DNA from: Metallyticus violacea
Taxonomy: Eukaryota; Arthropoda; Insecta; Mantodea; Metallyticidae
Direction of reading: 5' to 3'
NCBI GenBank assembly: GCA_030762175.1
Contig: CM060831.1
Coordinates: forward strand, 95,251,501 to 95,315,500
DNA length: 64,000 nt
This document shows positions 20,795 to 44,499 of this stretch, piece by piece. Position 1 is the first letter of the stretch. Every line of letters starts with the position of its first letter. The notes under the pieces are model-generated. The model searched no databases, was not told where the DNA came from, and saw only the letters and a program-made list of their open reading frames with translations. A program made the position numbers and the translations under genes.

Positions 20795-20834
20795 CCTGGG
20801 TCCTTCCTCGGCGCTGTCCGTGTCGCTACAGCTT

Positions 20835-20992
20835 CGACTGAAATGCTAGCTGGAGGTGTTATATTTATATACGGGCTGCTCGAAGGGAATTGGTTCGGCT
20901 GGAGCAGGGAGTGTGTACTCGGAGGGCAGGGCATCTCCGCTCTGATCGGTGATTGGTTCGCGTGAATTTTGCGAGTGTGGGCTTGTTTTACA
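20835..20992 (+). mobile_element. Penelope-like terminal segment, left arm part 2
   Basis: After the second copy of the 13-bp duplication the PLE arm resumes with GCTGGAGGTGTTATATTTA. Its start matches the inverted right copy (GCTGGAGATGTTACATTTA), after which the two diverge: the right copy becomes coding, this one non-coding. It runs into the first Jockey element near 20993; the boundary is approximate. Confidence 0.55.
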
Positions 20993-21419
20993 TGCTCTAA
21001 TATTGATTGCCAGGTTTTGCTCCTAGTGGGGCGCGGCGCGGCGCGGGCGGCTAGTGAGCATATCGTTTTCGGCCCTACTTCTGAGGTTCAATCCTGGCTT
21101 AAAGCTTGTGTTCTATACCAGCATCGAGCTCACCCAGGAGGGTGTATCTCTAAATGTCTGTTCATTGGCTAACTCTACTATTCTTACTGCGTAGAAGCAG
21201 CACAAGCAACAGGTGGGCGCGCTCGATCGCGTCCGCCACGGCGTAGTTCCCGTGTAGAAAGCAATTTTTGTGTTTGCACAACACAACATTTTATCTTCAC
21301 ACCTTCACTTCACAACTACACCAGCAACAAAAAAGGTTAGTAGCCGACTGTGCACAGTTCCTACCAGCGCGCTTTTTCCATTTAAAACATTTCCCAGAGC
21401 TACCACCTACTCACACAAA

Positions 21420-23158
21420 ATGAGTGATTCTAAGGCCTAAACAAGCCAAATCCCATCTACTTCAGCAGAGAAGGAGCTAAGACCAGCCTCTGGCCTCTCA
21501 AGAAAGAAAAGGTCTACCAGACTACGAAAAGCTGGTGGTAGGACCTCTTCGACTAGTGCTACCAAGGAAACGGGGGAGAGCCTTTCTTGCGAAAGGTCTC
21601 CAATACGTTTAGGCAAAAACCAAGTGAACTCAGACTCCACTACCGACGGTGACGCTTCACTCACCGACTTTTCTGTTCATTCAGAGAAAACATCCGTCTT
21701 CTCTGTCCACTCCTCCTATATGGAGGAGGAAGACAGCTCATCGGGTCTAGCTTCAGACGCTGACGAAGCTGAATTTCGTGTAGTTACTGGCAAGAGGAAG
21801 CGACGCTCTCGCCCTCAGCCATTAAATGCAGGCCCCAGCACATCTGGACAGCTAACTAAACTATCGTCCGCAACGTCCTCCAATTATTGTGGATTCTTTC
21901 CTGGGGGTGACGGGCTTCCTCAAGGAAGTCATGCCCACCCTTATGGGGAAATGCAAAGTAATCAGGAAAGGCAATACATACAGGTTTCAAGCGCGATGTG
22001 CGGAGGACCATCAACGCTTGCTGACCTCTCTTAAAAAGAGGGGAATCCAACACTTCTCCTTTGCCTTGAACAAAACTAAGGATGTGAGGCGCATCATCAG
22101 AGGGCTTCCCTTGGACACTCCAGTGGAGGATATCGATGCAGATCTCCGACGCCAGGGCGTAATACCCAAAGTTGTGAAGCAGTTGTCGAAAGCCGCTCCA
22201 GAGGGACGAATCACCATTCCCCTGTTCTTAATCATCGTGGGGCGAGCAGATGACCCTCAACTCAAGGTAGACAAGATCCAAGGGATTTGCTACCTTAGAG
22301 TAAAAATTGAGATCTCCCGACGCCCTGGCGGCCCCGCTCAGTGCCACCGCTGCCTGGGTTTCAACCACGCCAGTTATTTCTGCGACAGGAACCCTCGCTG
22401 CCTCAGGTGCGGTGGCCCTCATCCCCATGAGGTCTGCTCGAGATCTACCACGGAGACTCCTACATGCGCCAACTGCAAAGGGGAACACGTTGCCTGCTAT
22501 GGTCGATGCCCAGTGAGGCTAAGGATAATGACATCCTCCAGAAGGGAGCACCAAGAGGGCTCCGCTACTGGCAGAGACGCGCCTTCTGCTCTAGCTAGCA
22601 ACATCGGCAGAACTCCTACTGCAGCCCAACCAACCACAGTGCAGGATACATCCCCCATCACAACTACCACGCCGCAGACATCATATGCAGTAACGACGCA
22701 AAAGCAGCCCACTGACAGGCGAACTCACACCGAGGCCAAAATACAACAGGCACCCACTGAAACCACAGCCAGAACCAACCAACCAACCAACCAACCAGTA
22801 CCAGACTCCTCTCCGAAACCACAGAGGCGGAGGACTTCTCGGCGGGCGGCACCGGCTGGGAGGGAGACGGCTCCTGCTGTCTCCCCCCCCCCCCGTAGAG
22901 GTTACCCGGGAGAGACCGACGTCCTCTGGGCCTACCTCATCCAACCCAAAACCAAATAACCCTATCCAACAGGATGGCAATGCCCTGGAGCTGCTGCAGT
23001 GGCTGTCAAACTTTGGGCACTTAAGGCAAGCGGCTGCAGGAGCTTTGCATTCGCTTCCCAAACGCTCCCGACCCCTCCAGCAAAGTGTTGATAGCCTTTG
23101 AAGCCGTCGTCCTATTATTCAACGGAAGCCCAACAGCCAAAATGGGGAGCGGAATTAG
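21420..23158 (+). pseudogene. Jockey ORF1 (gag-like), broken, A copy 1
   Basis: ATG at 21420 is followed by a TAA at codon 7, where the third unit has CAA (Gln). An acidic, Ser-rich N-terminal region (SDFSVHSEKTS type, MEEEDSSSGLASDADEA) follows, then a basic patch GKRKRRSRPQ. A deletion of about 37 bases near 21885 relative to copy 3 shifts the frame. The next open frame (21889-22959) carries the conserved VTGFLKEVMPTLMGKCKVIR, RRIIRGLPLDTPVEDI and LFLIIVGRADDPQLKVDKI segments, which fit a PRE_C2HC-type region. Knuckles follow: CHRCLGFNHASYFC, CLRCGGPHPHEVC and CANCKGEHVACYGRC. The C-terminus is Pro/Thr/Gln-rich with an (ACCA)n run and a C10 run, then shifts frame again. ORF1 proteins bind the element RNA. 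Confidence 0.8.
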
Positions 23159-25911
23159 GTCTCGTACTTCGTTCCGATTCGCATTTGGAATGCGAACGGC
23201 CTGATGGACCGTGCGTACAAACTCCAACACTTTGCTTTCCGGTACGCACTAGACGCCATACTACACAGCGAGACGTATCTCCATCAGTACAACCACTTCC
23301 GTTTCCCGGGCTACAACTGCCTGAGAACGGATCGTGGTGCCCCAGGAGGAGGCACAGCGATAGTGATCAGGAGGAACGTGGTCCACCGACCTATCCAGAT
23401 CCCCCCACTTCAAACCTTGGAGGCCACGGCTGCATTCGCAGAACTTGACGGCACGGAGGTTCTGCTAACATCTGCATACCACTCTCCTTCCAGAGCATTC
23501 ATGGAAGCCGACTACCAATCCATTCTTGCCCTACATCCAATGTTATTCTGGCTGGTGATTTCAATGCCAAACATTCACGATGGCATTGCACTCAACGTGC
23601 AGATACCAGAGGCAACGCAATCACTCGCTTGATAGATTAGGACCCACAACTACGAGTACAGGGTCCCTGGCAACCCACTCACCATCCGCTTAGTAGAGCA
23701 CAATCATCTGTCATCGATTTTGCGATCATCAAACATTTCCCACACCATCTCACCCTCTCATCGATCAACGCATTACATTCCGACCATAACCCCGTGTTGG
23801 CAGAGATCAATACAAGGGTTGCCAGCTACGATGTCGCGGGTCTAATCCGCGAAATCGATTGGAAAATCGTCAAGGACTACTCAACACTATCATTCCCCCC
23901 AAACCCCAAAATCACCGACATCCCATCCCTAGAGACCGCAGTCTCATCCTTCTCCCATACGGTAACACGAGTGACTCACAGCCTCACGATCCATACCTCC
24001 CACCCGCGCACCCAGACGTCCTCCCGCTAAACCTCGAACTCCTCATTCACCGATCATGGGCAGCCCGCAGACTATTTCAACGTCATACCACATCATCGAA
24101 GACTCTGGAGGCGCTTGCGCCTCGAGGTCCGTGCCCGCCTAAGCGAGCATAGAAAGCTCGCCTGGGAGGACACCATGGCTAGACAGAACCTTGCTGATGG
24201 CGAAGTGTGGAGGATCGCCAAAAACCTCCGTGGACAACGAGTTCACACTTCCCATCCTATCCATGGCACCAGAGGCCTGGCCTACCAACCCCAAGCAATA
24301 GCAAATGCTTTTGCTGACTACCTGGAACAGCTTTTCAGCCCTAGAGAGGACCCTCAGGACGACAGCTTTTCAAGCCAAGTTCGTCGAGACGTTCGTCGTT
24401 ACCATCGACGACCGCCAGACGACACGGACGATAACATTGCCATCTTCCATCCCACAAAAGTCCAGGGCGAACTTCTGCGCCTCCATCCCAAAAAGGCTGC
24501 TGGGCCTGACGGGCTGACACCCCTCATGCTCCGCAACCTTCCTTTCAAAACTGTGCTCTTTGTTACCAAGGTTTTCAACATGTGCATCAGTTTGGGCCAC
24601 TTCCCACGAGAGTGGAGAGAGGCCAGAGTGATATGCATCTTGAAGCCGGGCAAAGACCCATGCAGTTACTGCTCCATAAGCCTCCTTTCAACCCTATCGA
24701 AAGTCTTCCAAATACTTTTACTGACCCTATAATACTTCTTAGGCTTTCACGGCCGGTGTTGTCATTAAAACAATTAAATTCTCCCGGGCTCTTTTGCCGC
24801 GGGCTGACCCGCTTGTCACCCTACTGGGTAACATTCAAGTCATACCTCCACATCAATTTGGCTTTCGTCCTGGGCGTTCTACTACCCAACAGCTGCTGAG
24901 GGTGGTGGAGGCTGCAGCCCTGGGTTTTCAGGACAAGGCTTTCACCGCCGCAGTTTCTCTGGATGTAGAAAAGACCTTCTCTACCACCTGGCACGCCGGG
25001 CTCTTACACAAACTACTCTCCCTTGGGCTTCCACACCAATACACACAGCTACTACACACAAACATCAAACACCGAACTTTCACTGTAATGGTGGCGGGAA
25101 ACAGTTCCACACTAAGATACGCGGCCGAGTTCCAGAAGGCTCTGTCCTCCCACCAATCTTATTCAACATTTACATGGCAGACTTTCCCCACACACCAGAC
25201 GTCAACATAGCACAGTATGCAGACGACGTCTTGGTACAAAACAGACAGACACATAGGCAGAGCCGTAATACCCATACAAAGATTACTACACCTAATCGAA
25301 AGGTGGAGTAGGCTTTGGAGAATGTCAATCAATCCGACAAAAAGCCACGCCATCATATTTACTAAACGCCGCATTCCCGCAAACTGCCCAACACTCACCT
25401 TCAACAGACAAAGGATACAGTGGAGGGATTCCCCTTACTTATTTGGGAGTTCAGCTAGATAAGAGGTTAATTTTCGGGAAGCACATTGCCGGAATTGCCC
25501 ACAGGGCCCAGGGAGCAATTGCTCAACTGAACCCAGTGTTCGGTTCAAAGGCAATGCCCGTCCATTTGAAAATTAACCTCTTCAAGGCTCTGATCATCCC
25601 CCTCATGTTGTACGCTTGCGAGATCTGCGGTATGGCTGCCGACAGTTGGCTGGCACTCATTCAAAGGGTACATAATAAAGGACTTGGCGCCATTTATTCT
25701 CTATACCGAAGCTTCCCGACCAGACTACTGCACGAAATCTCCTCCCTGCCATATATAGAGGATGAAATTAGGCGCTGGTCCAGGAAATTTTACCGCACTT
25801 TTTCCATACCACGAAAGTGCCCTCGTCCGTTCCTTGGGCAACTACAGCTGTCAGGGTAATTTAACACCTAAATTCATGGTGCCACGCTTGACTTGCGGGC
25901 ACCTTGGATAA
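23142..25911 (+). pseudogene. Jockey ORF2 (endonuclease-reverse transcriptase), broken, A copy 1
   Basis: ATG at 23142 overlaps the ORF1 stop by 17 nt. One base is missing in the FWNANG motif of the apurinic-type endonuclease, and another frame continues with SETYLHQYNHF, LRTDRGAPGGGTAI and AYHSPSRAF. The reverse transcriptase has KKAAGPDGLTPLMLRN, FPREWREARVICILKPGKDP, HQFGFRPGRSTTQQ, the motif A-like SLDVEKTFSTTW and a YADD box at 25215-25226. The C-terminal region has AHRAQGAIAQLNPVFGSKAM and ALIIPLMLYACEI. No RNase H domain is seen, as in Jockey elements. Several frameshifts and a 76-bp insertion at 24728 break the frame, so no full protein is possible. The end GHLG-stop is shared by all four units. 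Confidence 0.85.
24728..24803 (+). mobile_element. 76-bp Penelope-like fragment inserted in ORF2
   Basis: The segment contains GCTTTCACGGCCGGTGT and TCTCCCGGGCTCTTTTGCCG, words typical of PLE terminal sequence; GCTTTCACGGCC also occurs, inverted, at the right end of the composite (about 43850-43864). CTGACCC lies on both sides (24721-24727 and 24804-24810). Removing the insert and one copy restores the sequence seen in the third unit. Confidence 0.7.
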
Positions 25912-26649
25912 CAATAGCTTTAATCGCTACTACTGAAATTACTGATCAATTTTAACAATAGCACTTATCAAAATACACTACATTTCAACAGCAATATGGG
26001 CATGCTAAAAACCACAGAGGCTTTTAGAACATGCCTATATTAGCGAAAACGCCTGGACACTGGATCCACTCCTTTTGTCAGGAGAAGTGGTAACACTATC
26101 TCCAAATACATTTTTACCTCTACCCCACCAACAACCTACATCCCTCATCCAACCCTGTGGTTAAGCCCACGTGGGTAGGAACATAGTAACTGTACACTGG
26201 CTGGTTACTAGCCCAGCCTGCCACTTTTCGTCTGCGTCTGCTGCTCCTAGTGATGCGCGGCGGTGCTTGGTTAGTGAGCGGTTCGTTTTCAACGCAATTT
26301 CTGAGGCTGGGACGCGAATCCTTTCCTACTGCACCATTGAGCTCATCCAGGAGGGTGTGTCTGATTTCTAAGCGTGTTATTAGTCGACAGCAGAAATAAT
26401 GCTGCGTAGTTTTCTTATCTACAGCAACAGGTGGTCCCGCTCGTTCACGTCCACCACGCAGCAGCCCACAAGGAACTAAACTTTGTGTTTCTTCACCACA
26501 CTATTTACATCATTTTCTGCTCTTCTGGACACCACAGCAACACAAAACAAGGTTAGTGCTGAACTGTGTTAGGAGAGTAGTGCACTGCACATCAGCTGTG
26601 CAGTGTACAGTGCCTATTCTGCGTTTTATATTGATTTTTATTCCTTACC

Positions 26650-28076
26650 ATGAATCCCAGTGCAGTAGAAAGCACTGCTGTTGCGGCAGTTTCTGGCAAC
26701 CAGAGCTCCGAAAAGGTCTCAACTTCAACAGTTCAGCTGGAAAGCCAACCAAGGATACAAACGCTACCACTAGTAGCAATTCTTCTTCTCCTGTCGCCAT
26801 ATTCCACCTATTATCGTGTATTCGTTTCAGGGTGTGACTGGCTTCCTCAAGAAAGTAATGCCAACCCTGATACCCGAATGCAAGGTAATTCGGAAAAGTA
26901 ATTCCTACAGGTTTTAGGCTAGGTGTGCCGAGGATCATTAGAGGCTGCTTAGCAATCTCAAGAGGCGTGGGATTCAACATTTCTCCTTTGCCGTTGATAA
27001 AGCTCGCGAAATCCGGCGCATCATCAGAGGACTGCCAGTGGATACTCCGGTGGGAGACATCGCTGACGACCTCCAACGCCAGGGTGTAAAACCCAAATTA
27101 GTGAAACAATTTAACAAGGCCCGCTCAAGGTGAAAACCCTTCGTTGAGAATCCCCATCCTCCTCTTTTTGGCAATAGTTGTGCGGGCCGATGACCCTGAG
27201 GTAGGGATAGACAAACTATCGTCATTATGCTACCTCAGCATAAAGGTCCAAACTCCCCGACGCCCTGGCGGCCCCGCACAATGCCACCGCTGCTTGCGCT
27301 TTAATCATTCGAGTGAGTTCTGCTCCCGGAACCCTCGATGCCTCAAATGCGGTGGCCCCCCTCCCCGCGAGGCTGCCAATGAGCTCGCACGGAGATCCCC
27401 ACTTGCGCAAATTGCAAGGGAGATCACGTGGTCTGCTTCTGTCGATACCCTACAAGGTTACGTATGATCAGCAACACCGGCAACCGCCGGAACAATTCAG
27501 GTGGAAACCCTGCATCTACTGCTCCCACACCACCGCCTGTTGTAACAGCGATGAGCACCTCCAAAGCACCGCCAGTGGCAGTGCGACCAGCAAGCGCCAC
27601 TACAACCACCAAGGCCACAATAAACGGCGATAACTCCTACTCTGCAATTGCGCAAGAACTGCCCTCTGATGCTCGACGGATGAAGCGAGCAATGACACAG
27701 GTTCTCCAGTAAAACTGCCATCAACACCCACAGCTCCAACCAACCCAGCTCCCAAGCCTCAGAGGCAGCGCCGCCTTCCAAGGAAGACTCCAACTGCTGA
27801 AGGCCAGAGTGCCACTCCTCAGCAGAGGGAAACCAAAGAGACCGGTCGTCTCCGAGGTCCTCCCTCACAACTCCCCAATCCCAACAGTGGGAAAGCACCT
27901 TAGCCTTGCTCCAATGACTGTCACAATTGTGGCCGACATATGGTAGGAAGTTACAGGAGCCCCTCGTCCGTTTCCGCCTAGCACCTGACTCCAACAGCAA
28001 GATGATGATAGTCTTTGAGGCCATCGCCCATCTTGTCGACAGCAACCAGGCGACCCAGAATGGTGAACGAAACTAG
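26650..28076 (+). pseudogene. Jockey ORF1, broken, B copy 2
   Basis: The N-terminus MNPSAVESTAVAAVSGNQSS matches unit four. About 350 bases are then missing between GTTCAGCTGG and AAAGCCAACC, removing the acidic region and the KRKRRSRP patch. The remainder is scattered over frames: RRIIRGLPVDTPVGDIADDL-type sequence, LAIVVRADDPEVGIDKLSSL, and knuckles CHRCLRFNHSSEFC and CLKCGGP. The ORF1 stop at 28074-28076 (CGAAACTAG) overlaps the ORF2 start. It is not functional. Confidence 0.8.
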
Positions 28077-30764
28077 GTCTCGTACCTCCTTCCGGTTCGC
28101 ATTTTGGAACGCTAATGGTCTTGCCGATAAGAGGGACGAGCTACGTCATTTTGCAGTCCAGTCTGCCCTAGAGGCCATTTGGGTCAGCAAGACGCTATTC
28201 CATTAAAACTCCAACTCCCGTCTTCCGGGCTACCCTTGCCTCCGACTGACCGAGGTGCCCCTGGCGGCGGCACAGCGATCTACATCCGGAGAAATGTAGT
28301 CCACCGCCCTATCCAGATCCCGCAACTACAAGCCTTAGAGGCCGCAGCTGTTTCTGTGGAACTTGGTGGCATGGAGGTACTGATAGTATCTGCAAACCAC
28401 TCCCCATCCAGAGCCTTTGTGGTGGCTGACTACCAATCCCTCCTTGCCCTACGCCCCAGTATCATCCCTGCGGGTGATTTCAATGCCAAACATTCTCGTT
28501 GACATTGCACTCACCGCGCGGATACTAGAGGCAAAGAAATTGTTCGCTTAATCGATCGAGACCCCCTGCCCAGATTACAGGGTTCCCGGCAACCCACACA
28601 TCATCCGTACAGTGGAGGACAGCCATCTGTCATCGACTTTACGATTCTCAAGCACACCACACACCGTCTCACCCTCACATCAATCAACGCACTTCATTCC
28701 GATCATAACCCCGTGTTGGCCGAAATCAACACCAGGATTGCCAATCAAGATGTCGCAGGGCTACACCGCGAGATCGACTGGAAAAGCGTTAAACTAAGCC
28801 TCGGCACTATCATCCCTCCCAACCCCAAAATCATTGACATCCATTCCCTAGAGACCGCAGTCTCATCCTTCTCCGTGACAGTCACCAAAGTCACCCTAAG
28901 TCTCAATATCCAAGCCTCGTCTCCCCTGCATCCAGATGTCATTCCTCTTGACCTTGAGCTCCTCATCCGCCCCTCCTGGGCCGCCTGCAGACTCTATCAG
29001 CGTCACCGCACGCCACATCACCGAGCTCTGTTAAGGACCTTGCGCCGCCATGTTAGCGCCCGCCTTCATGAACACAAAAAGCTTGCGTGGGAGGACAATA
29101 TGGCAAGACAGAACTTGATCGATGGCGATGTGTGGAAGATTGCTAAGAACCTCCGTGGCCAAAGAGACAGAACCTCCCGACCAATCCATGGCTCCCGAGG
29201 CCTCGTGTATGATCCTCACGCCAAACTCAATGCCCTCGCTGACTATCTGGAACGTCCCCTAAAGCTTAGAGACGACCCCCAGGACGACATCTTCTCAAGT
29301 CAGGTTCGTCGCGACGTTCGTCGATATCTTCGAAGGCTGCCGGATGAAGATGACTTACGGATTCCCATCTTTCACCCCCGTGAAGTCCAGGGCGCAATCC
29401 AGCGTCTCAAAATCCAAAAGGCTGCCGGGCCTTATGGGCTAACGCCCCTCATGCTCCGCAACCTTCCTTTCAAGGCTGTGCTCTTTGTCACAAGAGTCTT
29501 CAATATGTGCATTAGCCTGAGCCACTTTCCACGAGAGTGGAGGGAGGTACGGGTGATATGCATACTGAAACCAGGCAAAGACCCAACCCACCCCTCCAGC
29601 TACCGATCAATCAGTCTGCTTTATACACTCTCAAAAGTGTCTGAGAGATTACTTCTTGCCCGATTGCTTCCTTTACTGGGAAATATTCAAGCCATCCTTC
29701 CTCAGTAATTCGGTTTCCGTCTTGGGCATTCTACTGTCCAATAGCTGCTGAGGATTGTGGAGGCCTCAGCCCTGGGCTTCCAGGAGTGGGCCTTCACCCC
29801 AGCAGTGTCTTTGGGTGTAGAAAAGGCCTTCTCGACGACCTGGAACGCCGGGCTCCTATATAAACTCATTCACCTGGAGCTTACCAAACACTACATACGT
29901 ATTATACACTCATACCTCAAACATCGCACTTTCAAATTACCGGTGGCGGGAAACAATTCAACACTAAGACCAATATGCGGCGGAGTCCCCGAAGGTTCTG
30001 TTCTATCCCCATTTCTGTTCAACATTTACATATCAGACATTCCCCACGCAGCAGACGTCAACATTGCTCAATACGCAAATGACGTCCTGCTATACAAAAC
30101 AAATAGAAAGAGAAACAGAGCCATCATTCCCATACAAAGACTGCTACACCTAATCGAAAGGTGGTGTAGGCGTTGGCGAATGTCAATCACCCGGCAAAGA
30201 CCCATGCCATAATCTTCACTAAACGCCGCGTGCCCGCAAACTCACACTCTGACATACAGACAGCAAAGGATAGGGTGGAAAAATTCCATAGCCAACCAGG
30301 GTGTGCAACTGGATAAAGGTCTAACCTTCAGGGAACACATAGGCCGGACTGCTCACAGGGCACAGGGAGCTATTGCTCAACTGTTCCCTATGCTCAGTTC
30401 CAAGGCTATGCCAGTTCACCTGAAATTGCACTTTTTCAAAGCCCTGGTCATCCCTATCATGCTATACGCCTGTGAAATCTGGGACATGGCAGCTGACAGT
30501 TGGCTCGCACTTCTGCAAAGAGTACAGAATAAAGGTCTAAAGACCATTTATTCTGTATATCGACACTTTCCAGTCAGGCTACTCCATTACAGTTCTTCCC
30601 TCCCATGTATTGAGAATGAAATTATGCGCCGGGCCACAAAATTTTACGCCAAATTACCTTTTCATGAGAGTGCTCTCGTTCGTTCACTCGGCAGCTATTC
30701 CTGTAGTGATAGGCCTAAGCTAAAATTCAAGGTGTCAGGCCGAGCGTGTGGCCACCTTGGATAA
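28060..30764 (+). pseudogene. Jockey ORF2, broken, B copy 2
   Basis: It starts MVNETRSRTSFRFAFWNANG with an intact endonuclease N-terminus, then stops near 28206 because of TAA and a frame change. The frame from 28713 to 29708 is the longest intact part: connector, then AGPYGLTPLMLRNLPF (family AGPDGL), HFPREWREVRVICILKPGKD and SSYRSISLLYTLSKVSERLL. TAA at 29706-29708 replaces the CAC/CAT of HQFGF. Motif A reads SLGVEKAF, with Gly (codon at 29814) in place of the catalytic Asp, and the YADD box is YAND at 30072-30083. Even an unbroken protein would thus lack two catalytic aspartates. Confidence 0.85.
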
Positions 30765-31419
30765 CAAAGGGGCATAACCTTAACAACAGGATAACATTCC
30801 AAAATCCCAACATACCTATAACAGGAATAACAACGTGAAAAATAAAGTAGCGGTATTCCCATGATGCTCACAAGCTAAAAACAGCTAAACCACCCTACAA
30901 CCTTCTTCCCATCTCTGCGGTTAAACCCAACACAGGGTAGGTACGCAGCATCTACACACAGGCTGAGCACTAACCTCAGCCTGCCAGTTTTCTTCGGCTT
31001 CTGCACCTAGTGAGTGTAGCGGGATGCGGCGTGAGTTAGTGAGCGTTAGTGAGTGTATCGTTTTCAACCCCACTTCGGGGGTTGGATCCCAGCATGGAAG
31101 CTCGGTTTCTATTCCAGCTTTGAGCTCAACCTGGAGGATGTATCTGCTTTACCTGTGTTAATTGCCTAAAGGCACAATTCTAACTGCGGAGAAGCAACTA
31201 CATGTGGGCGCGCTCGTTAACGTCACCACGGCGTAGTTCGCACGAGGACAAGCAACTTTTGTGTTTGTACAACACCATATTTCCATCATCTACTCGTCAC
31301 TTCTTCACATTGCAGCCACACCAGCAACAAGAAAGGTTAGTAACCGACTGTGCACAATTCCTACCAGCGCACATTTTCCACTTAATACACACTTCAGAAC
31401 TACCACCAACTCACATAAA

Positions 31420-33179
31420 ATGAATGATTCTAGAGCCCAAACAAGCCAAATTCCATCAACTTCCCCAGAGAAGGAGCTAAGACCTCTCTGGCATCTCGAG
31501 AAAGAAAAGGACTACTAGACCACGTAAAGCTGGTGGTAAGTTCTTTTCCAAAAGCATTATCAAGGAAAGAGGGGAGCCTTTCACACAAAAGGTCTCCTAT
31601 CCGTTTAGGCCAAAACCAAGGGAATTCAGACTCCACTACTGACGGTAGGCTTCACTCGCCGACTTTTCCATCCACTCAGAGAAAACTTCCGTCTTCTCGT
31701 CCTCCTATATGGAGGAGGAGGATAGCTCTTCAGGAATAGCTTCAGACGCTGAAGTATCCGAATTTCGAGTAGTAACTGGCAAGAAGAAGCGGCGTTCTCG
31801 CCCTCAACTACTGAGGGTAGGCTCCAGCACATCTGGACAGTCAACTAATCCAACATCCGCAACGGGTCAAAACCCTAACGGAAATACCAGGAGGCACATA
31901 CCTCCGATTATTGTGGACTCTTTCCAGGGGGTGACAAGATTTCTCAAGGAAGTCATGCCCACCCTTATGGGGGAATGTAGAGTTATTCGCAAAGGGAATA
32001 CTTACAGATTTCAAGCGCGATGTGTGGAGGACCATCAGCTATTGCTGACCTCTCTTAAAAAGAGCGGCATTCAACGCTTCATTTTCACCTTAGATAAAGC
32101 TAAGGGTGTGAGGCGCATTATCAGAGGGCTTCCCTTGGACTCTCCGGTGGGAGATATCGAGGCAGATCTCCGACGCCAGGGGTAACACCCAAGGTCGTTA
32201 AACAGCTGTCGAAATCCGTTCCAGAGGGACAACCTCTACAAGGAATTCCCACCCCCTCTTCTTAATCTTCGTGGAGCGAGCAGAGGACCCGGAAATCAAG
32301 GTAGACAAGATCCTAGCGACCTGCTACCTAAGAATGAAAATTGGGATCTCCCGCCGCCCTGGCGGCCCCGCTAGGTGCCATCCCTGCCTGGGATTTAACC
32401 ACGCTAGCCATTTCTGCGAGAGGAACGCCCGCTGCCTCAGGTGCGGTGGCCCTCAACCCGCTATTACTGCCCGTGAATCTTCCACGGAGACTCCCATCTA
32501 CGCCAACTGCAAAGGGGAACACGTTGCCTGTTACGACCGATGTCCAGTGAGGCTGAGGGTGATGGCAAACTCCAGAAGGGAGCATCAAGATGGTTCTGCA
32601 CCTGGCAGAGACGTACCTTCTGCTCCAGCTATTAACATCGCCAGAACACCCACCGCAGCCAAACCTACAATAGCGCAGGCAACAACCCCCAGTACAACAA
32701 CCACTCCACAGATATTTTATGCAGTAACGGCGCAAAAGCAGCCCACTGATAAGCGACCTCCCACCGGAGCCAAAACACAGCAGAAACCCATACAAACTGC
32801 TGCCCGAAAAAACCGACCAGCACTAGCCTCCTCTCCAAATCCACAGATGCGGAGGACTTCTCAGCGGGCCGCACCGGCTGGGAGGGAAACGGCTCCTGCT
32901 GTTTCCCCCCAGTGGAAAGTGCTCGGGAGAGGCCGACGACCAGAACCACCTCGACCTCACCCACCCAGAACCAACAAATTCCATCCAGCCGGGTGCAAAT
33001 GCCCTGGAGCTGCTACAGTGGCTGTCAAAAATTTGGCAGACTTATGGCAGCGGCTGCAGGAGCTTTGCACTCATTTCCTAAACGCTCCTGACCCCTTCAG
33101 GGAAATGCTGGTAGCCTTTGTGGCCATCGCCCTATTTTACAACGGAAGCTCAGCAACCCAAAATGGGGAGCGGAATTAG
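31420..33179 (+). pseudogene. Jockey ORF1, broken, A copy 3
   Basis: It starts MNDSRAQTSQIPSTSPEKEL, then loses two bases near 31486 and shifts frame. The frame 31709-32185 has MEEEDSSSGIASDAEVSEF, GKKKRRSRPQLL, the stretch missing in copy 1, VTRFLKEVMPTLMGECRVIR and RRIIRGLPLDSPVGDIEADL. Another shift follows, then 32271-33179 has VERAEDPEIKVDKILATCYL, knuckle CHPCLGFNHASHFC (second zinc ligand kept), CLRCGGPQP, CANCKGEHVACY-type sequence with YANCK (first Cys lost), a low-complexity stretch and the end ATQNGERN-stop. This is the most complete ORF1 in the array. Confidence 0.8.
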
Positions 33180-35187
33180 GTCTCGTACCTCGTTCCGTTT
33201 CGCATTTTGGAATGCGAACGGCCCGGTGGATCGTGGGGCCGAACTCCAAAACTTTGCTTCCCGGTACGCACTAGACGCCATACTAGTCAGCGAGACGTAT
33301 CTCCATCAGTATAACCACTTCCGTCTTCAGGGCTACAACTGCCTGAGAACAGATCGTGATGCCCCGGGAGGAGGCATAGCGATAATGATCAGGAGGAACG
33401 TGGTCCATCGCCCAATCCGGATCCCACCACTTCAAACCATGGAGGCCAAGGCTGCAATTATAGAACGCGCAGTCACGGAGGTTCTGCCAATATCTGCATA
33501 CCACTCTCCCTCCAGAGCATTCGTGGAAGCCGACTTCCAATCCATCCTCCCCCTACGTCCAAGTGTCATTTTGGCCGGTGACTTCAATGCCAAACATGCA
33601 CGTTGGCATTGCATCAAAGAGCAGATGTCAGAGGCAACGTATTCACTCGCTTGATAGATCAGGACCCACAACTACGAGATAAGGGTCCCTGGCAACCCAT
33701 TCACGATCCGCTTAGATGAGAACAACCATCTGTCATCGACTTTGCGATCATCAACCACTTCCCGTCACCATCTCACCCTCACATTGATCAACGCATTACA
33801 TTCCGATCATAACCCCATGTGGGAAGAGATCAACACAAGGGTTGCCAGCCAGGATGTCCCGGTTTTAATGCGTGAAAACGATTGGCAAAGCGTTTAGGAC
33901 TACCTAAACACTGTCATTTCCCTTAATCCAAAAATTATCGACATCTCCATAGAGACTGCAGTCTCATGCTTCTCCCACGCGGTAACACGAGTAGCTCACA
34001 GCCTCACGAACCACCACGCCCCACCCCCACACCCAGACATCCTCCCGCTAAACCTGGAACTCCTCATCCGCCGATCATGGGCAGGCCGCAGATTATTTCG
34101 TCACCGCACGCCACATCATCGAAGGCTCTGGAGGCGCTTGCGCCTCGAGGTCCGTGCCCGCCTGCGCGCATAGAAGGCTCGCCTGGGTGGACACCATGGT
34201 TAAAGAGAACCTTGCTGACGGCGATTTTTGCAGGATCGCCAAACCCTCCGTGGACGAGTTCAGACTTCCCATCCTATCAATGGCACCAGAGACCTGGCCT
34301 ACGAATCCCAAGCCAAAGCAAATGCTTTTGCCCACTACTTGGAACAGCTTTTCAGGCCTAGAGAAGACCCCCAGAACGACAGCTTTTCAAGCCAAGTTCA
34401 TCGAAACATTTGTCGGTACTTCCGACGACCGCCAGATGACACGGACGATAACATTCTCATTTTCCATCCCACAGAACTCCAGGGCGCACTACTGCGCCTC
34501 CATCCCAAAAGGGCTGATGGCCCTGACGGGTTGACACCACTCATTACCCGTAACCTTCATTTCAAAGCTGTGCTCTTTGTTACCAAGGTTTTCAACATGT
34601 GCATTAGCTTGGGCCACTTCCCACGACAGTGGAGAGAGGCCCGAGTGATATGCATCTTGAAGCCGGGCAAAGACCCAGTCCATTCATCAAGTTACCGCTC
34701 CATCAGCTTCCTTTCGACCCTATCGAAAGTATTCGAAAGACTCTGGTCCGCTTGACACCCCTACTGGGTAACATTCAAGCCATTCCTCCATACAATTGAC
34801 TTTCGTCCTGGGGACTCTACTACCCAACTGCTGCTGAGGGTGGTGAAGGCTGCAGCCCTGGGTTTTGAGGACAATGCATTCACCTTCACGGTTTCTCTGG
34901 ATGTGGAAAAGGCCTTCTCTACCACCTGGCACGCCGAGCTCCTACACAAACTAGTCTCCCTTGGGTTTCCACGCCGATACATACGAGGTCTCTTCACAAA
35001 GTATCGCGAATTATGAATTTCCGCGGGCTAGGTATATTCGATTTTCGATTGTTTGTGCCGTTATGTTGGTACTCATGTCCCTCACTTATGTTGATAAGCT
35101 CGGCCATTTCGAATGTTCAGTTAATTATTGACAGCTTTTTGATTGCACGTGTGTTAGCTCGTCTTCGATTCTTGCCTATTCCAAAAA

Positions 35188-36339
35188 ATGCAACAAAGAA
35201 TGTGTAACAAATTTTGTGTGAAAAACAAAATTAAGTGCGCGGATGCATTCCAAATGTTGACTGTGGCATATGGTGAAGCTACCTTGGACCAAAGCAACGA
35301 TTATCGGTGGTACAAAATGTTCTCAGAGGGTCGAGAAGTTGTGAACGACGAAGAGCGTCCCGGACGCCCGAGTTCGTCAACAACCGACGAAAACATTGAA
35401 GTGAAGAAAATAGTATTGGCCAATCGTAGAATCACCATTAGAGAAGTTGCTGAGGCTCGTGCCAATCGATTTTTATCAATGATTTGGGCATGAGACTGGT
35501 CGCCACCAAATTCGTACCAAAGTTGTTCAATTTCGACCAAAAACACCATCGCATTAACGTTGCTAAGCTGCTGTTGAACTCTGTCCGCGACGACCCAAAT
35601 TTGCTCCAGAGGGTCATAACTGGTGACGAATCATGCGTTTATGGTTATGACGTGGAAGTTAAAGCTCAATCATCCCAATGGATGCTGCCACACGAGCCAA
35701 GACCGAAAAAGCACGCCAAGTTCGGTCGAATGTGAAGGATTTCCTTACAGTTTTCTGCGATTGCAGGGGCGTGGTGCATCATGAGTTCTTGCCACAGGAT
35801 AGAACGGTCAATAAGGAATATTGCCTGCAAGTTGTCTGCAATTTGCGCGAAGGAATTCGCCAGAAACGCTCGGATTTGTGGAAGTACAAAAATTGGTTTT
35901 TGCACCATGATAACGCCCCTGCTTACAGTTTTCTTCGATTGCAGGGGCGTGGTGCATCATGAGTTCTTGCCACAGCATAGAACGGTCAATAAGGAATATT
36001 CCCTGCAAGTTATCTGCAATTTGCGCGAAGCAATTCGCCAGAAACGCTCGGATTTGTGGAAGTACAAAAATTGGCTTTTGCACCACGATAACGCCCCTGC
36101 TCACATATCGTTGCTTGTGCCCGAATTTTTGGGCAAAAATACCAAACTTATGATGCCGCAGCCACCGTACTTCCCAGACCTGGCCCCCTGTGACTTTTTT
36201 GTTCCCAAAACTGCAGATGCCCATGAAAGGACGACGCTACGCCACGATTAAGGAGATAAAGACGGCATCGAAGGAGGAGCTGAACAAGATCACAAAAAAA
36301 CGATTTTTAAAGTGCTTCGAGGATTGGAAAAAACGCTAA
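35188..36339 (+). pseudogene. mariner transposase, broken
   Basis: The N-terminal part reads MCNKFCVKNKIKCADAFQML, MFSEGREVVNDEERPGRPSS and TTDENIEVKKIVLANRRITI, the DNA-binding region of mariner transposases. About 30 residues after REVAE are missing. Then comes KFVPKLFNFDQKHHRINVAK and the first catalytic segment ITGDESCVYGYD (usual form GDETWVYGYD, so Trp is lost). A second catalytic Asp lies in HHDNAPAH, and the third in PDLAPCDFF. The end KCFEDWKKR-stop is at 36339. The deletion, frameshifts and a 178-bp duplication of the core make it inactive. The D-x-x...D(34)D layout marks the mariner family. Confidence 0.85.
35744..36100. repeat. 178-bp tandem duplication inside the mariner transposase
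   Basis: CTTACAGTTTTCT at 35744 recurs at 35922 (CTTACAGTTTTCT), and the sequence to about 35921 repeats to 36100 with only a handful of differences, including GATTGCAGGGGCGTGGTGCA. 178 is not a multiple of three, so the copy shifts the frame. Confidence 0.9.
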
Positions 36340-38003
36340 CACAAGTGTATAATATCTGGTGGAGATTACTTTGAAAGGACAAAATGGAAATTCATGAATA
36401 AATTCTTTTTGAAAAAAAACACAGAATTCGCGATACTTTTTGAGCAGATCTCGTAAAGCTACTACACACATACATCAATCACCGAAGTTTCACTGTAATG
36501 GTGGCGGGAAACACCTCCACACTAAGACAGATACGCGGCCTAGTTCCAGAAGGTTCTGTTCTCTCACCAATCCTATTTAACATTTACATGGCAGACTTTC
36601 CTCACACACCAGACGTCAACATAACACAATATGCACACGAAGTCCTGGTATACAAAACCAACAGACACATGAGCAGATCCGTAATACTCATATAAAGACT
36701 GTTTCACCTAATCGAAAGGTGGAGCAGGCGTTGGAGAATGTCAATCAATCGGACAAAAAGCCACGCCATCATATTTACTAAACGCCGCATTCCCGCAAAC
36801 TGCCCAACACTAACCTTCAACAGGCAAAGGATACAGTGGAAGAATTCCCTCCCTTATCTGGGAGTACAGCTTGATAAGGGGTTACCTTTCAAGGAACACA
36901 TCGCCGGAATTGCCCACAGGGCCCAGGGAGCTATTGCTCAACTGAGTCCTCTGTTCGGTTCGAAAGTGACGCCCGTTCGTTTGAAACTTAACCTATTCAA
37001 AACTCTGATCATCCCCCTCACGTTGTACGCTTGCGAGATCTGGGGTATGGCAGCCGACAGTTGGCTGTCACTCATTCAAAGGGCACAGAATAGAGGACTT
37101 CGCGCCATTTATTCTGTATACAGATACTTCCCGACCAGACTACTACATGAAACCTCCTCCCTTCCATATGCAGAGGATGAAATTTGGCGCCGGGCAAAGA
37201 AATTTTACCGTACTTTACCACACCACGAAAGTGCCCTCGTTCGTTCCTTGGGCCACTACCGCTGCCAGGGTAGGTTAAAGCTTAAATTCAAGGTGCCACG
37301 CTTAGCTTGCGGGCATCTTGGATGACAATAGCTTTAACCCCTACAACTGAAATTACTGAGTAATTTCAGCGAATGCACTTTTAAAATACACAACCATTCA
37401 GCAGCAATATATGCATGCTAAAAACCTACAGAGGCTTTTAGAACATGCCTACATTAGCGTAAAATCTGGACACTGGATCCACTCCTTTTGTCGGGAGAAG
37501 TGGTAAGACTATCCCCAAACATCATAATACCTCCACCTCACAAACTACCTACATCCTTCATTCAACCCTATGGTTAAGGCCACACGCAGGTAGGAACATA
37601 GAAACTGTATTTCGTCTGCGTCTACCAGGTTTTGTTCCTAGTGAGCGTATCGTTTTTGGCTACACTTCGGAGGTTGGCGCGCGACTCATTTCTTACCCGA
37701 GCGTTGAGCTCTCCTCAGTGGGTGTGTCTGATTTTACGAGTGTTTATTGGACAACAGTAAAAATTTAACTGCGTAGTAACAACAGCAGCAACAGGTGGTC
37801 ACGCTCGTTCGCGTCCGCCACAGCGCAGCTCGAGCGAAACCAGCCCATTTTGTGCTTCTTCAGGAACATATTTTCACAATTTTGTTCACATCTGAGCATC
37901 ATACCACCACCAAACAGGTTAGTGCTCAACTGTGTGTGGAGCACATCAGCTGTGCAGTTCACAGTACCTATTTCTGTGTTTACAAGCTAAAATTCACCAC
38001 ACC

Positions 38004-40132
38004 ATGAATCCCAGTGCAAATAAAAGCAATATTTTTGCGGGAGTTTCTGGCAGCCAGAGCTCCGCAGAGGCCTCAATTTCCACCGAGAAGGTGAAAAGAC
38101 ACCAGTCTGGCCCCAACAAGAAACGAAAACCTCGCCGACCACGTCATCTAGACGTGAGGAAACCCCCAAAGCTGCCTTGAGCAAGGATGACAGCCCCTCG
38201 CGGGAACGATCTCCTCTGCGTGTAGGCAAAAAGCCGGAAACCAACTCTGGCAACAGTAGTGAGGAATTGCTCACTGATTATTCATCATATTCTGAGAAGA
38301 CTTCTATCTCCTCTGTCCATTCCTCCTATATGGAGGGAGACGACAGTTCGTCCACCCTAGCTTCTGAAGCCGACGACGCTGATTTCCAAGTTGTAGCCGG
38401 CAAGAGAAAGCGGCGATCCCGTCCTCATTTTGAGGCATATGGCTCCAGTCCAGTAAGAAAGCCAACCATTTCAGCAGGCGCTACCACTAGTAGCAATTCT
38501 TCATTTAGACCTAGAAGCTATTTCACCGATTATCGTGAATTCCTTTCAGGATGTTACTGGCTTCCTCAAGGAAGTAATGTTGTCCCTGATTGCGGAATGC
38601 AAGATAATTCGGAAGGGCAACACTTACAGATTTCAGGCAAGGTGTGCTGAGGACCACCATAGGCTGCTTAGCAACCTCAAGAGGAGAGGGGTTCAACACA
38701 TTTCCTTTGCCGTCGATAAAGCACGCGACATCCGGCGCATCATTAGAGGACTGCCAGTGGACACTCCGGTGGGAAACATCGCTGACGACCTCCAACGCCA
38801 CGGCGTACATCCCAAACTAGTGAAACAACTATCAAAACCCGGTCAAGGCGAAAACCCTTCGGAGAGAATTCCCATCCCTTCTTCTTGATGATATGTGGTT
38901 GAGATCTCTCTCGATTCCAGAGGCGTTACCTTATAGGAACACAGAGATCTGTGTCGTCCAGTCGTTTTTTGCATTTAGGACGGTACCTAGAGTCTAAACC
39001 CTCCAGCCGTTCGGCCGCAGACGATTGCGTCGCCCAAGCGCGCTAGGGCTGCCAGTGGACACTTCGAGTGGGAGACATCGCACACGACCTCCAATGCCAG
39101 GACATACATCCCAAACTAGTGAAACAACTATCAAAGTCCGGTCAAGCCGAAACCTTCGGCGAGAATTTACATCCCCTCTTCTTGCTGATAAAGGCGAAAA
39201 CCCTTCGGCGAGAATTCCCATGCCCTCTTCTTGGTGATAGCTGAGCGGGCCGACGACTCTGAGGTGGCGATAGACAAATTATCGTCATTATGCTACCTCA
39301 GCATAAAGGTCCAAACTCCCCGAGGCCCTGGCGGCCGCGCTCAATGCCACCGCTGTTTGGGCTTCAATCACTCGAGTGAGTTCTGTTGCCGGAACCCTCG
39401 ATGCCTCAGATGCGGTGCCCCCATCTCCGCGAGGCCTGTCAACGAGCTCCCACAGAGAAGCCCAATTGCGCAAATTGCAAAGGAGATCACGTGGTCTGCT
39501 ACGGAAGGTGCCTAACAAGGATACGCATAATCAACACCTGCAACCGCAGGATTCATCCAGGTGGAAACCCTGCGTCTACTGCTCCCATGCCACCGCCTGC
39601 AGTAGCAGCGACGAGCACCTCCACGGCACCGCCCGTGGCAGCGCGACCTTTAAGCGCCACTTCAACCATCAAGGCCACAACCAATAGCGACAACTGCTCT
39701 TCTGCAATTGCGCAAGGACAGCCCTCTGATGCTTGATGGATGACGCGAGCAAGGACACAGGCCCCACCTGCAAAACCGACATCATCAGCTCCACCCTAAC
39801 CAGCTCCCATGCTTCAGAAACAGCGCCGCCCTCCCAGGAGAACTCCAGCTGCTGAGGGGCAGAGTGCCACTCCTCAGCAGAGGGAAACCCAGGAGACGAG
39901 ATCGCCTCCAAGATCCTCCCCCATCACTCTCCAATCCCAACAGTGCGAAAGCACCTTGGACTTGCTCCAATGGCTGTCACAATTGTGGCAGACATATGGT
40001 AGGAAATTACAGGAGCTTCTCGTCCGTTTACGCCAAGCACCAGACTCCTCCAGCAAGATGATGATAGTCTTCGAGGCTATCGCCCTTCCTGTCTACAACA
40101 CTCAGGCGACCCAGAATGGCGAACGGAACTAG
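38004..40132 (+). pseudogene. Jockey ORF1, broken, B copy 4, with internal duplication
   Basis: It starts MNPSANKSNIFAGVSGSQSS, stops at 38180, and continues in other frames with SYMEGDDSSSTLASEADDAD, GKRKRRSRPHFE, VTGFLKEVMLSLIAECKIIR and RRIIRGLPVDTPVGNIADDL. After 38887 about 155 bases of unrelated sequence are followed by a repeated copy (39045-39236) of the preceding 38750-38887 segment, with the word AACCCTTCGGCGAGAATT now present three times in variant forms. The frame then resumes with VIAERADDSEVAIDKLSSLC and knuckles CHRCLGFNHSSEFCC and CLRCG, ending TQNGERN-stop. It is not functional. Confidence 0.8.
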
Positions 40133-42795
40133 GTCTGGTACCTCGTTCCGGTTCGCATTTTGGAACGCCAATGGTCTTGCCGACAAGAGGTACGAGCTAC
40201 ATTATTTTGCTGCCCGGTTTACCCTGGACGCCATATTAGTCAGCGAGACGCATTTCCTTCAATATTCCATCTTCCGTCTTCCGGGCTACACTTGCCTCCG
40301 GACTGACTGAGGTGCTACTGGCGGCACAGCGATCTTCATCCGGAGAAATGCAGTCCACCGCCCAATCCAGATCCCGTAACTTCAAACGCTAGAGGACGCA
40401 GCTGTCTTTGTGGAACATGGTGGCACGGAGGTACTGTTAGTATCTGCAAACCACTCCCCATCCAGAGCCTTCGTGGTGGCTGACTACCAGTCCCTCCTCG
40501 CCCTACATCCCAGTGTCGTCCTCGCGGGAGATTTCAATGCAAAACATCCTCGTTGGCATTGCACTCACCCCGCGGATACTAGAAGCAAAGCAATTGTTCG
40601 CTTAATCGATCAGGACCCTCAGCTCAGAGTACAGGGTCCCTGGCAACTCACCCATCATCCGTATAGTGGAGGACAGTCATGGACTTTACGATTCTCAAGC
40701 ACTTCACACACCATATCACCCTCACATCAATCAACGCACTTCATTCCGATCACAACCCCATGTTGGCCGAAATCAACACCAGGATTGCCAGCCATGATGT
40801 CGCAGGTCTAAACCGCGAGATCGACTGGAAAAGCGTAAAGGAATGCCTCGGCACTATCATTCCTACCAACCCCAAAATTACAGACATCCATACCCTAGAG
40901 ATCGCAGTCTCATTCTTCTCCCTGACAGTCACCAAAGTTACCCATAGTCTCACCATCCATATCTCCCCTCCTCTTCACCCAGATGTCATCCCTCTAGACC
41001 TCGAGCTCCTCATCCGTCGCTCCTGGGCTGCCCGCAGACTCTACCAGCGTCACCGCACGCCACATCACCGAGTTCTGTTAAGGACCTTGCGACGCCAAAT
41101 TATTGTCCGCCTCCGCGAGCACAAGAATCTCGCGTGGGAGGACACTATGGCAAGACAGAATTTGATCAATGGCGACGTGTGGAGGATAGCTAAGAACCTC
41201 CGTGACCAAAGAGACAAAGCCTCCCGACCAATTCATGGCACCCGAGGCCTCGTGTATGATCCTCACGCCAAAGCCAATGCTCTCGCTGATTATCTGGAAC
41301 GTCTTTTCAGGCCTATAGACGACCCCCCAGGACGATATCTTTTCAAGTCAGGTTCGTCGCAATGTCCATCTATATCTTCGACGGTCGCCGGATGAAGATG
41401 ACCTAAGGATTCACATCTTTCACCCTCTCGAAGTCCAGGGCGCAATCCAGCGTCTCAAACCCAAAAAGGCTGCCGGACCTGATGGGCTAACCCCCCTCAT
41501 GCTCCGCAACCTTCCTTTCAAGGCTGTGCTCTTTGTCACAAAAGTCTTCAATTTGTGCATCAGCCTGATCCACTTTCAACGAGAGTGGAGGGAGGCACGG
41601 GTGATATGCATATTGAAACCAGGCAAAGACCCAACCCACCCCTCCAGCTACCGATCAATCAGTGTCTCCCTTCTACACTCTCAAAAGTATTTGAGAGATT
41701 ACTTCTTGCCCGAATGCTTCCCTTGCTGGGAAACATTCAAGTCATCCCCCCTCACCAATTCGGTTTCAGTCCTGGGCACTCTACTACCCAAAAGCTGCTG
41801 AGGATTGTGGAGACCTCAGCCCTGGGGTTCCAGGAGAGATCCTTCACCCCAGCGGTATCTTTGGATGCAGAAAAGGCCTTCTCGACGACCTGGCATGCCG
41901 GACTCCTATATAAACTCATTCACCTGGAGCTTCCCAAAACTACATATATCTAATACACACATACCTCAAGCATCGCACTTTCAAAGTAGCGGCGATGGGC
42001 AACACTAAGACCGATACGCGGCGGAGTCCCCGAAGGATATGTTCTATCCCCAATTCTGTTTAACATACACATGTCAGTCTTTCCCCACGCAGCAGACGTT
42101 AACACTGCACAATATGCAGATGACGTCCTGCTATACAAAACAAATAGAAACATAAACAGAGCCATCATTCCCATACAAAGACTACTATAACTAATCGAAA
42201 GGTGGTGTAGGCGTTGGCGAATGTCAACCAACCCGGCAAAGAGCAACGCCATAATTTTCACTAAACGCCGCTTGCCCGCAAACTTCCCCACTCTGACATA
42301 TAGACAGCAAAGGATAGAGTGGAAAAATTCCATAGCCTACCTGGGTGTGCAACTAGATAAAGGTCTAACCTTCAGGGAACACATAGCCGGGACTTCTCAC
42401 AGGGCACAGGGAGCAATTGCTCAACTGTTCCCTATGCTTAGTTCCAAGGCAATGCCAGTTCACCTGAAATTACACCTTTTCAAAGCCCTGGTCATTCCTG
42501 TGTGCTATACGCCTGTGAAATCTGGCACATGGCAGTTGACAGTTGGCTCGCACTTTTGCAAAGGGTACAGAACAAAGGACTCAGGACCATTTATTTTGTA
42601 TATCGATGCTTACTTCAGAACAGTTCTTCCCTACCATATATCGAGGATGAAATTAGACGCTGGGCCACAACATTTTACGCCAAATTACCCTTTCATGAGA
42701 GCACTCTCGTTCGGTCACTCGGCAGCTATTCCTGTAGCAATAGGCCTAAGCCCAAATTCAAGGTGCCACGCCTAGCGTGTGGCTACCTTGGATAA
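40116..42795 (+). pseudogene. Jockey ORF2, broken, B copy 4
   Basis: MANGTRSGTSFRFAFWNANG starts at 40116, with SETHFLQYSIFRLPGYTCLR following before a TGA near 40310. The frame then continues in pieces: LLVSANHSPSRAFVVADYQS, VVLAGDFNAKHPRWHC, the connector 40679-41395, and KKAAGPDGL, MLRNLPFKAVLFVTKVFN and HFQREWREARVICILKPGKD. Motif A is SLDAEKAFSTTW and the active-site box is an intact YADD at 42113-42124. The thumb and C-terminal region has GVQLDKGLTFREHIAGTSHR. It ends GYLG-stop at 42795. Its catalytic boxes are the best preserved of the B copies, but frameshifts disable it. Confidence 0.85.
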
Positions 42796-43051
42796 CAAAG
42801 GGGCATAACCTAGCAACAGGAAAAACATTCCAACTCCCCAGCAAAGCAACAACAATTAGCAGAAAAACTAAGTAGCGGTATGCCCATGCTGTTCACAAAA
42901 TAAGTGAACAACATGTGCATATCAAGCAAACTCCAAGGATGTCATATCCGCCTGCTACAACAAGGATAAGCTTTTACTGCACAATCCTTCCACCCCACAT
43001 CCAAAACAGCAGAACCACCCTACAACCCCCATTCCTTCTCTGCGGTTAAAC

Positions 43052-43741
43052 CTAACACAGGGTAGGTACACAGCATCCACACACAGGCTGAGCACTAACC
43101 TCAGCCTGCTGCTTGTAGATTTCTATTGCTTCGCGTTGTAATCTAGCGCGGTAGTATGGTATTGAACAGAGAACAGATGTTTCATTATATTGGATAGTGT
43201 GTTCTCCGTCTGCCCACAGTGCATGTTCTGCCAACGCGGACTTGTCCGGATGGCTCAGACGGCAGCATCTCTTGTGTTGGGAGATCCGTGTGTTGACGCT
43301 ACGTTGAGTGGTAACTATGTATACTGCACCGCAGGAACAAGGAATGCGGTAGACGCCGGCCGAAACGAGCGGGTCCCTAGGGTCTTTGGTCGAGTGTAGC
43401 AAAGTATTGATTTGTCTGGTAGGCTTGAAAATGGTTTTGAAGTTGTGGCGTTTGAGTAGGCGTCCAATTCTGTCATTGACCTTGTACGGCAGGAAAGCAA
43501 TGCCATTGCTCCTGGGCGAATCATGTATGGTCGGGTGGTGTGTGGGTGGGCGTATCGCTCTGCGTACTTCTTGTGCTGTGTAACCATTTGAAGATAAATC
43601 CCGTTCCAGATGCCGGAATTCCTGTTGCAAAGAGTCAGGCTCGCGGATGCGAGTAGCGGGGTCAGTGAGGGTCTTTAAATGTAACATCTCCAGCTGGCAT
43701 TTCAGTCGTGCCAGGACCTTCGCCCAGAAGACTCAGACCGC
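43052..43741 (-). pseudogene. Penelope-like GIY-YIG endonuclease region, truncated
   Basis: The minus-strand frame reads VLARLKCQLEMLHLKTLTDP, then the linker NGYTAQEVRRAI and IAFLPYKVNDRIGRLLKRHN. The GIY-YIG domain follows: GVYRIPCSCGAVYIVTTQRS, NTRISQHKRCC, SALAEHALWADGEHTI and REAIEIYKQ. This is the nuclease domain typical of Penelope-like elements. The YIG glycine is replaced by Val (YIV), while the Arg and the REAIEI Glu are kept. No reverse transcriptase precedes it; upstream on this strand is the terminal segment at 43698-43871. After EIYKQ, near 43110, the frame reads into the 3' UTR of the adjacent Jockey element (QAEVSAQPV...), so its natural C-terminus is gone. Confidence 0.8.
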
Positions 43742-43871
43742 GCCATTGAAGATGTCCTCCGTAGGTGGGGATGAAACGTTTGGACTCCTTAGCTCCAACA
43801 GACCATGGCCTCCAAGCCAGGAAGAAACTTCTAGTTATAAGTCTAACTCAGGCCGTGAAAGCTTCCGACTA
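43698..43871 (-). mobile_element. Penelope-like terminal segment, right arm
   Basis: On the minus strand this begins TAGTCGGAAGCTTTCACGGC and matches the left arm (18520 onward) from CTTATAACTAGAAGTTTCTT to GACTGAAATGC. It extends about 30 bases further out than the left arm, so the left arm is shortened. It abuts the 12-bp flanking repeat at 43872. Confidence 0.75.
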
Positions 43872-44486: not shown

Positions 44487-44499
44487 ATGCCTGACAAAA

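Follow-up and report, generated by a model that had tools for sequence, protein, structure and literature searches.

The window, a 64,000-nucleotide stretch of Metallyticus violacea contig CM060831.1, contains a GC-rich block (approximately 20993-43110) in which its four retrotransposon units are found. Self-comparison and alignment show four collinear Jockey-like units on the plus strand, arranged head to tail in the order A-B-A-B as the sequence-only reading had proposed, namely U1 (A subfamily, 21023-26241), U2 (B subfamily, 26247-31004), U3 (A subfamily, 31007-37623) and U4 (B subfamily, 37638-43109). The pairing of U1 with U3 and of U2 with U4 is also borne out by pairwise divergence in the alignment of the four units, with identities of 84.7% (0.847) and 84.9% (0.849) respectively, versus 0.661-0.682 across the four A-B pairs.

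The four units are themselves decayed, and every lesion reported earlier is present. U1 has a stop at codon 7 of ORF1 (read by eye), a gap of 37 columns in the four-unit alignment and a GTCTGC-type tail. U2 has a TTCGGC-type tail and a deletion in ORF1 which spans 370 alignment columns (first given as 350 bp). U3 is shorter by 2 bp near 31486 (seen by eye) and is split by a mariner-type element (34984-36453, plus strand) possessing a Transposase_1 domain, inverted ends and a TA duplication, with an inner 178-bp tandem duplication of its own (35744-36105). U4 carries an internal 147-bp duplication (38747-38893 and 39045-39190, 86.5% identity by self-comparison) and has lost its 3′ tail; judged by eye against an empty site, its 3′ junction has lost ~20 bp from the end of the unit along with ~50 bp of the adjoining PLE flank. 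The mariner-type insert, this damaged junction, the flanking element and its target words had all been overlooked. There is also a short insert found in U1 only (approximately 24735-24810, an alignment gap in the others), which by eye is like part of the flanking element's terminal repeat as seen in the flank of another locus (L034).

The array interrupts a minus-strand Penelope-like element (PLE), within whose RT/GIY-YIG ORF it lies antisense and not far from the end. Self-comparison identified an outer terminal repeat copy ("pLTR") of 148 bp (18517-18664) with an inverted partner of 91% identity (43697-43844), and this pair frames the whole array together with its PLE flanks; the same repeat lies beside PLE flanks in L036, L063/L079, L068 and L076. 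To the left of the target is the PLE 3′ flank (20835-21009, minus strand), with counterparts left of units in L028, L036, L040, L061/L067, L063/L079, L068, L073, L076 and L090. On the right side the PLE occupies 43110-43844, and includes coding sequence for the GIY-YIG endonuclease end (43110-43732, minus strand) in which ~50 bp adjoining the target have been lost. The 207 aa encoded by 43112-43732 (minus strand) are 47% identical to protein P0165, which has the Pfam GIY-YIG domain, and 34% identical to P0187, which has RT plus GIY-YIG in Pfam; the PLE copies of the window and of L029 gave no Pfam GIY-YIG match themselves. RVT_1 was found in the PLE ORF of a related copy, L044, and its RT piece used as a query retrieved 2796 proteins at E ≤ 0.001. 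Among the 120 best of these, most possess RVT_1 and four possess GIY-YIG (P0098, P0135, P0165, P0187). The flank is assigned to a PLE because of this GIY-YIG-type match and the RT of the related copy, an RT fused to a GIY-YIG endonuclease being the arrangement that characterises Penelope-like elements. A hammerhead ribozyme in the PLE terminal repeats was suspected by eye, but Rfam matched none in ten loci and window positions 17000-46000, and none is proposed.

Within the PLE there is a further, separate LINE-like insert (18665-20834, minus strand), which ends in poly(A) and has a target duplication of 12 bp, CGACTGAAATGC. Its sole ORF, of 427 aa, is cysteine-rich, has no RT part and matches no Pfam family. 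Relatives of this insert adjoin A or B units in L032, L048, L053 and L055. Directly beyond the PLE lies a 187-bp tandem duplication (44115-44487, 98%), while a dispersed 300-bp repeat occurs at 12737-13033, 47514-47810 and 60667-60957; this may be a SINE headed by a tRNA-like part, and ARAGORN detects no tRNA; a tRNA-derived SINE in the flanks is accordingly rejected.

The left target duplication of the array is the word CCAGGTTTTGCTC (21010-21022, plus strand), located by word search. With both strands searched at no more than one mismatch, just one other match exists in the window, this being the full-length word CCAGGTTTTGTTC retained at the U3/U4 joint (37625-37637, plus strand). The U1/U2 joint (26242-26246, plus strand) retains only 5 bp, the remnant TGCTC, and the U2/U3 joint (31005-31006, plus strand) only 2 bp. 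The target word also stands between units in L040, L073, L076 and L079, and in a shortened form in L110.

The earlier label of Jockey-type elements in two subfamilies is a fair one, since their RT clusters with proteins that bear the names jockey, X-element and BS, which we take to denote the Jockey clade. In a protein tree of 26 sequences (A, B and 24 of 70 search matches) A and B together are sister (94/94) to a group of 15, of which 13 are spider proteins with these names, and they sit on a long separate stem; the tree has automatic labels in place of a curated reference set, and few outgroups. Open pieces of sister copies show Exo_endo_phos (the APE endonuclease) and RVT_1 above cut-off, whereas PRE_C2HC was found at E 0.003-0.006, under its curated cut-off. 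No RNase H was seen in a 346-aa piece of B that begins inside the RT and reaches the stop of ORF2. Most A and B tails are GTCTGC- or TTCGGC-like, and a poly(A) run was found at none of 78 junctions (39 A and 39 B ends).

These ends come from a survey of the 2.32 Gb genome with the 3′ regions of A and B, for each of which 40 candidates were scored and the best-scoring rows 2-40 kept, the window's own being removed and some stretches fetched additionally. Each end was classed by its next 140 bases, with both strands compared. Of the A ends, 17/39 lie at the PLE site and 5/39 are followed by a unit in the same orientation; the rest lead into the PLE terminal repeat (1/39), a relative of the minus-strand LINE (1/39) or unclassified sequence (15/39). 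The PLE site accounts for 5/39 B ends, plus one ~55 bp upstream of it (L096), while ten run into a same-orientation unit, one into an inverted unit, two into the terminal repeat, one into a second target, two into a LINE relative and 17 into unclassified sequence. The figures describe those relatives of U1 and of U2 that scored best rather than random draws, and give the share of A and B ends at the PLE site and not the share of PLE sites occupied. They leave out secondary rows (three in the A search, 27 in the B search); L031, L040 and L093 were favoured by queries which crossed the window's own joints, the near-identical neighbours L023/L024 may count once, and some loci are shared (L032/L055/L055a, L037/L103, L051/L051b, L099/L116). 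The PLE assignment of L028 is a word match only, and the tail of L108, one of the B-list loci, is A-like. Because 15/39 A and 17/39 B ends lie in unclassified sequence, the PLE site is a preference and not a rule, modest in B and weaker there than in A. With 17/39 A and 5-6/39 B ends at the site, this differs from strict R1/R2-type specificity, where nearly all copies are at one target.

The insertions at the PLE site are all in one orientation, and comparison of both strands at the 39 A and 39 B ends revealed no junction with a PLE match in reverse. Measured on the uninserted site of L036, the PLE matches of 13/29 A loci, aligned on the plus strand only, have starts in the range -6 to +13 relative to the target word CCAGG.., with L019 inserted ~25-30 bp upstream of this common point. 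In the PLE frame the site lies just after ..EALKLS, where a related PLE protein reads ..ETLKINRT. L019, L030 and L035, three A loci to which a script gave the label PLE1, belong with L117 to a second, diverged PLE subfamily. The 5′ truncation points at the site differ among L019, L028, L029, L030, L034, L035 and L036, and because of this and of the use of two PLE subfamilies the insertions are separate events; a composite of PLE and A element spreading as one unit is also rejected, the differing truncation points making it unlikely. Both flanks of L036 fit a target duplication of at least 9 bp (left ..GATGCCAGGTTTTG, right CAGGTTTTGCTC), as do those of L012/L067 with 8 bp and one mismatch (left ..GATGCCAGGTTT, right CCAGATTTTGCTC). 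No clear duplication was seen in L030 and L035, and most of the target word is absent from L011, L013, L023/L024 and L051b. In L028, L029 and L034 the left flank differs from a simple PLE left side, and these loci have therefore been rearranged.

The array of the window very probably arose by repeated, target-biased insertion at a PLE site that was regenerated each time. Target-primed reverse transcription after an endonuclease cut is standard for non-LTR retrotransposons. The APE-type endonuclease of the A/B family, or its target complex, would favour the short stretch surrounding GATGC|CAGGTTTTGCTCAG, close to where the PLE ORF ends, and reverse transcription primed there would add a copy and duplicate roughly 8-13 bp. 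A usable target would then persist on the 5′ side, where the next copy, A or B, could insert, and repetition would produce a head-to-tail array extending 5′-ward. Later decay, with the mariner in U3, the deletions and the loss of the right target half, would have led to the present form. The pattern of insertion is shown, and both the endonuclease preference and the regrowth at a regenerated site are inferred from it.

A bias towards the PLE region might instead reflect a hot spot without any sequence preference of the endonuclease, arising through chromatin, through cruciforms in palindromic PLE copies or through selection against copies elsewhere. Palindromic PLE copies do exist (L029, L036), each arm of which contains the endonuclease region, and L036 has one target filled and one empty. 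A second palindromic repeat (T2) gathers A/B arrays as well (L017, L020, L037), and places in the PLE other than the main site are used, namely the terminal repeats (L053, L100, L118) and the point ~55 bp upstream (L096). Yet PLE1 junctions fall within ~20 bp and share one orientation, the diverged PLE is hit at the homologous place as well, and a hot spot of this kind is thought unlikely, if well worth keeping in mind.

A 5′-side search listed 45 matches and yielded 25 loci, which after removal of two self matches and one overlapping duplicate left 22. The PLE site lies directly left of the unit in three of these (L067, L068, L090; in L068 with the PLE flank partly missing), a same-orientation unit in eight (L070, L072, L073, L076, L077, L079, L082, L085) and neither in ten. 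In the remaining locus, L069, the target word was observed left of an A unit near position 1450, with non-PLE sequence beyond it which looks like another element's tail, as if that element too had used the site. The order PLE, truncated unit, target word, next unit is found in L073, L076, L079 and L040, and the arrays of L044 and L051 end in the PLE site. The A-B joints that the sequence-only reading suggested looking for do occur elsewhere in the genome, along with A-A, B-B and B-A, and the alternation in the window is unremarkable. Linkage of units by template switching or RNA recombination within one reverse-transcription event would suit the near-zero sequence at the U1/U2 and U2/U3 joints and the direct joints of L043, L052 and L055, and could be the source of single joints. 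As an account of the array it is improbable, given the target words between units at U3/U4 and in L040, L073, L076 and L079 and a U1 branch length unlike that of its neighbour.

The branch lengths come from a maximum-likelihood tree of 25 copies over ~1.1 kb of ORF2, copies with fewer than 900 aligned bases being excluded. U1 groups with L010-L015 and U3 falls in an older A group with L016/L017/L028/L030, the split between the two having a support of 99 and many inner A branches being weakly supported. U2 groups with L041/L046/L048, while U4 lies outside the nine-copy group containing U2 (support 99), so that neither U1 and U3 nor U2 and U4 are sisters. Identities across eight A and seven B copies agree: U1 is 93-95% identical to six A copies (L010-L015) versus 87% to U3, U3 is nearest to L017 (0.90) and L016 (0.89), and U2 is nearest to L002 (0.90) versus 0.86 for U4. 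An ORF1 search with U2 placed U4 below eight other copies and tied with a ninth. Because the tree groups them with different genomic copies, none of the four units derives from local duplication of another. The four units, which stem from different branches of the two subfamilies, are shown by this to have inserted separately, at the same site of a single PLE copy.

Repeated insertion, one of the two routes offered earlier, was thus right in kind; its driver appears to be a common PLE target rather than homing of each type on the other's end. The other route, an A-B dimer formed once and then duplicated by unequal exchange or segmental duplication, would fit the ABAB order and the similar divergences of the two pairs (0.847, 0.849). 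It is ruled out by the genomic copies nearer to U1, U2 and U3 than their presumed partners and by the non-sister tree, with the unlike target remnants at U1/U2 and U3/U4 (5 and 13 bp) also against it, and is given hardly any probability. Assembly artefact is similarly far-fetched: contiguity is taken from the assembly alone, but the contig is 172 Mb long, the units differ by at least 15%, making collapse or misjoining unlikely, and comparable joints occur at many loci.

The terminal branches are 0.057 for U4, 0.057 for U3, 0.050 for U2 and 0.032 for U1, with an error of ~0.006 by our own rough estimate over ~1100 sites, which separates only U1 from the others. U1, at the 5′ end of the array, roughly looks the youngest, as would be expected if the target is renewed there, and the proposed 5′-ward order is based on these branch lengths that set apart U1 only. 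It had been suggested that the array formed before most of its decay, which is doubtful, as the bulk of the changes is confined to single units and U1 seems younger. Nor is the parallel drawn with telomeric arrays supported, as the window lies mid-contig, at 95.25-95.32 Mb of the 172 Mb, and not at a chromosome end as a telomeric array would.

The best-known targets of non-LTR retrotransposons are rDNA, telomeres, small RNA genes and microsatellites, with MoTeR and TRAS/SART as examples of telomere-targeted arrays. To our knowledge, there are few cases of such elements aimed at other mobile elements. One is Tx1L of Xenopus, a non-LTR retrotransposon which inserts in Tx1D, a DNA transposon. The two systems are alike in having a retrotransposon at a fixed site in another mobile element; they differ in that A and B are Jockey-like, have a Penelope-like retroelement as target and form arrays. 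One article includes other transposable elements among the known targets of non-LTR retrotransposons and cites a paper on the Tx1L endonuclease (PMC8869645). Among the titles and abstract openings listed from the open-licence literature, none mentions a Jockey-like element with a PLE as its target, and this is weak evidence that the case is new. HeT-A/TART/TAHRE, Hebe and G2/Jockey-3 share the RT affinity of A and B, but are tied to chromosome regions, whereas the A/B bias is towards a short sequence in a dispersed retroelement. Hebe is a subtelomeric jockey-clade element forming a head-to-tail chain with other retroelements, and has a poly(A) tail in contrast to the mostly hexamer-type tails of A and B (PMC2861651); G2/Jockey-3 appears to favour centromeric DNA (PMC13269885). 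Zepp of the alga Coccomyxa also forms clusters of nested copies of one element, described as one per chromosome and probably centromeric (PMC3446292), as opposed to the A/B arrays at many loci, among which the place on the chromosome was looked at for the window's array alone.

It is tentatively proposed, at somewhat under an even chance, that this Jockey-like lineage may be a specialised parasite of a parasite, whose endonuclease would recognise conserved sequence towards the 3′ end of Penelope-like ORFs across diverged PLE subfamilies and for which PLE copies would act as renewable landing pads. If so, each landing would restore the target and stack further copies, and the head-to-tail arrays that result would be dispersed and lie outside telomeres and rDNA. 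The case links two retroelement classes, explains arrays by simple target regeneration and provides natural replicates, with many insertions at one site and at least one empty site alongside, as well as a sequence on which an APE endonuclease from beyond the usual site-specific clades can be tested.

Other surroundings of A and B units deserve mention. T2, which resembles PLE ends by eye only, has duplications between the units of its arrays in L020 and L037. In L037 an A unit lies 5′ of a B unit with a 10-bp duplication resembling B's 5′ edge, and A seemingly landed later, on the 5′ side of B, in agreement with renewal of the target at the 5′ end. By eye, a stretch of TATATATA is found ~25 bp before the insertion point in L020 and L037, and also in L026. 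L012 has an inverted, 3′-truncated B piece within the RT part of its PLE. The 3′ ends of L021 (A) and L092 (B) share, by eye, the flank CTCTGAGGAAAACTGGC, perhaps a third common target.
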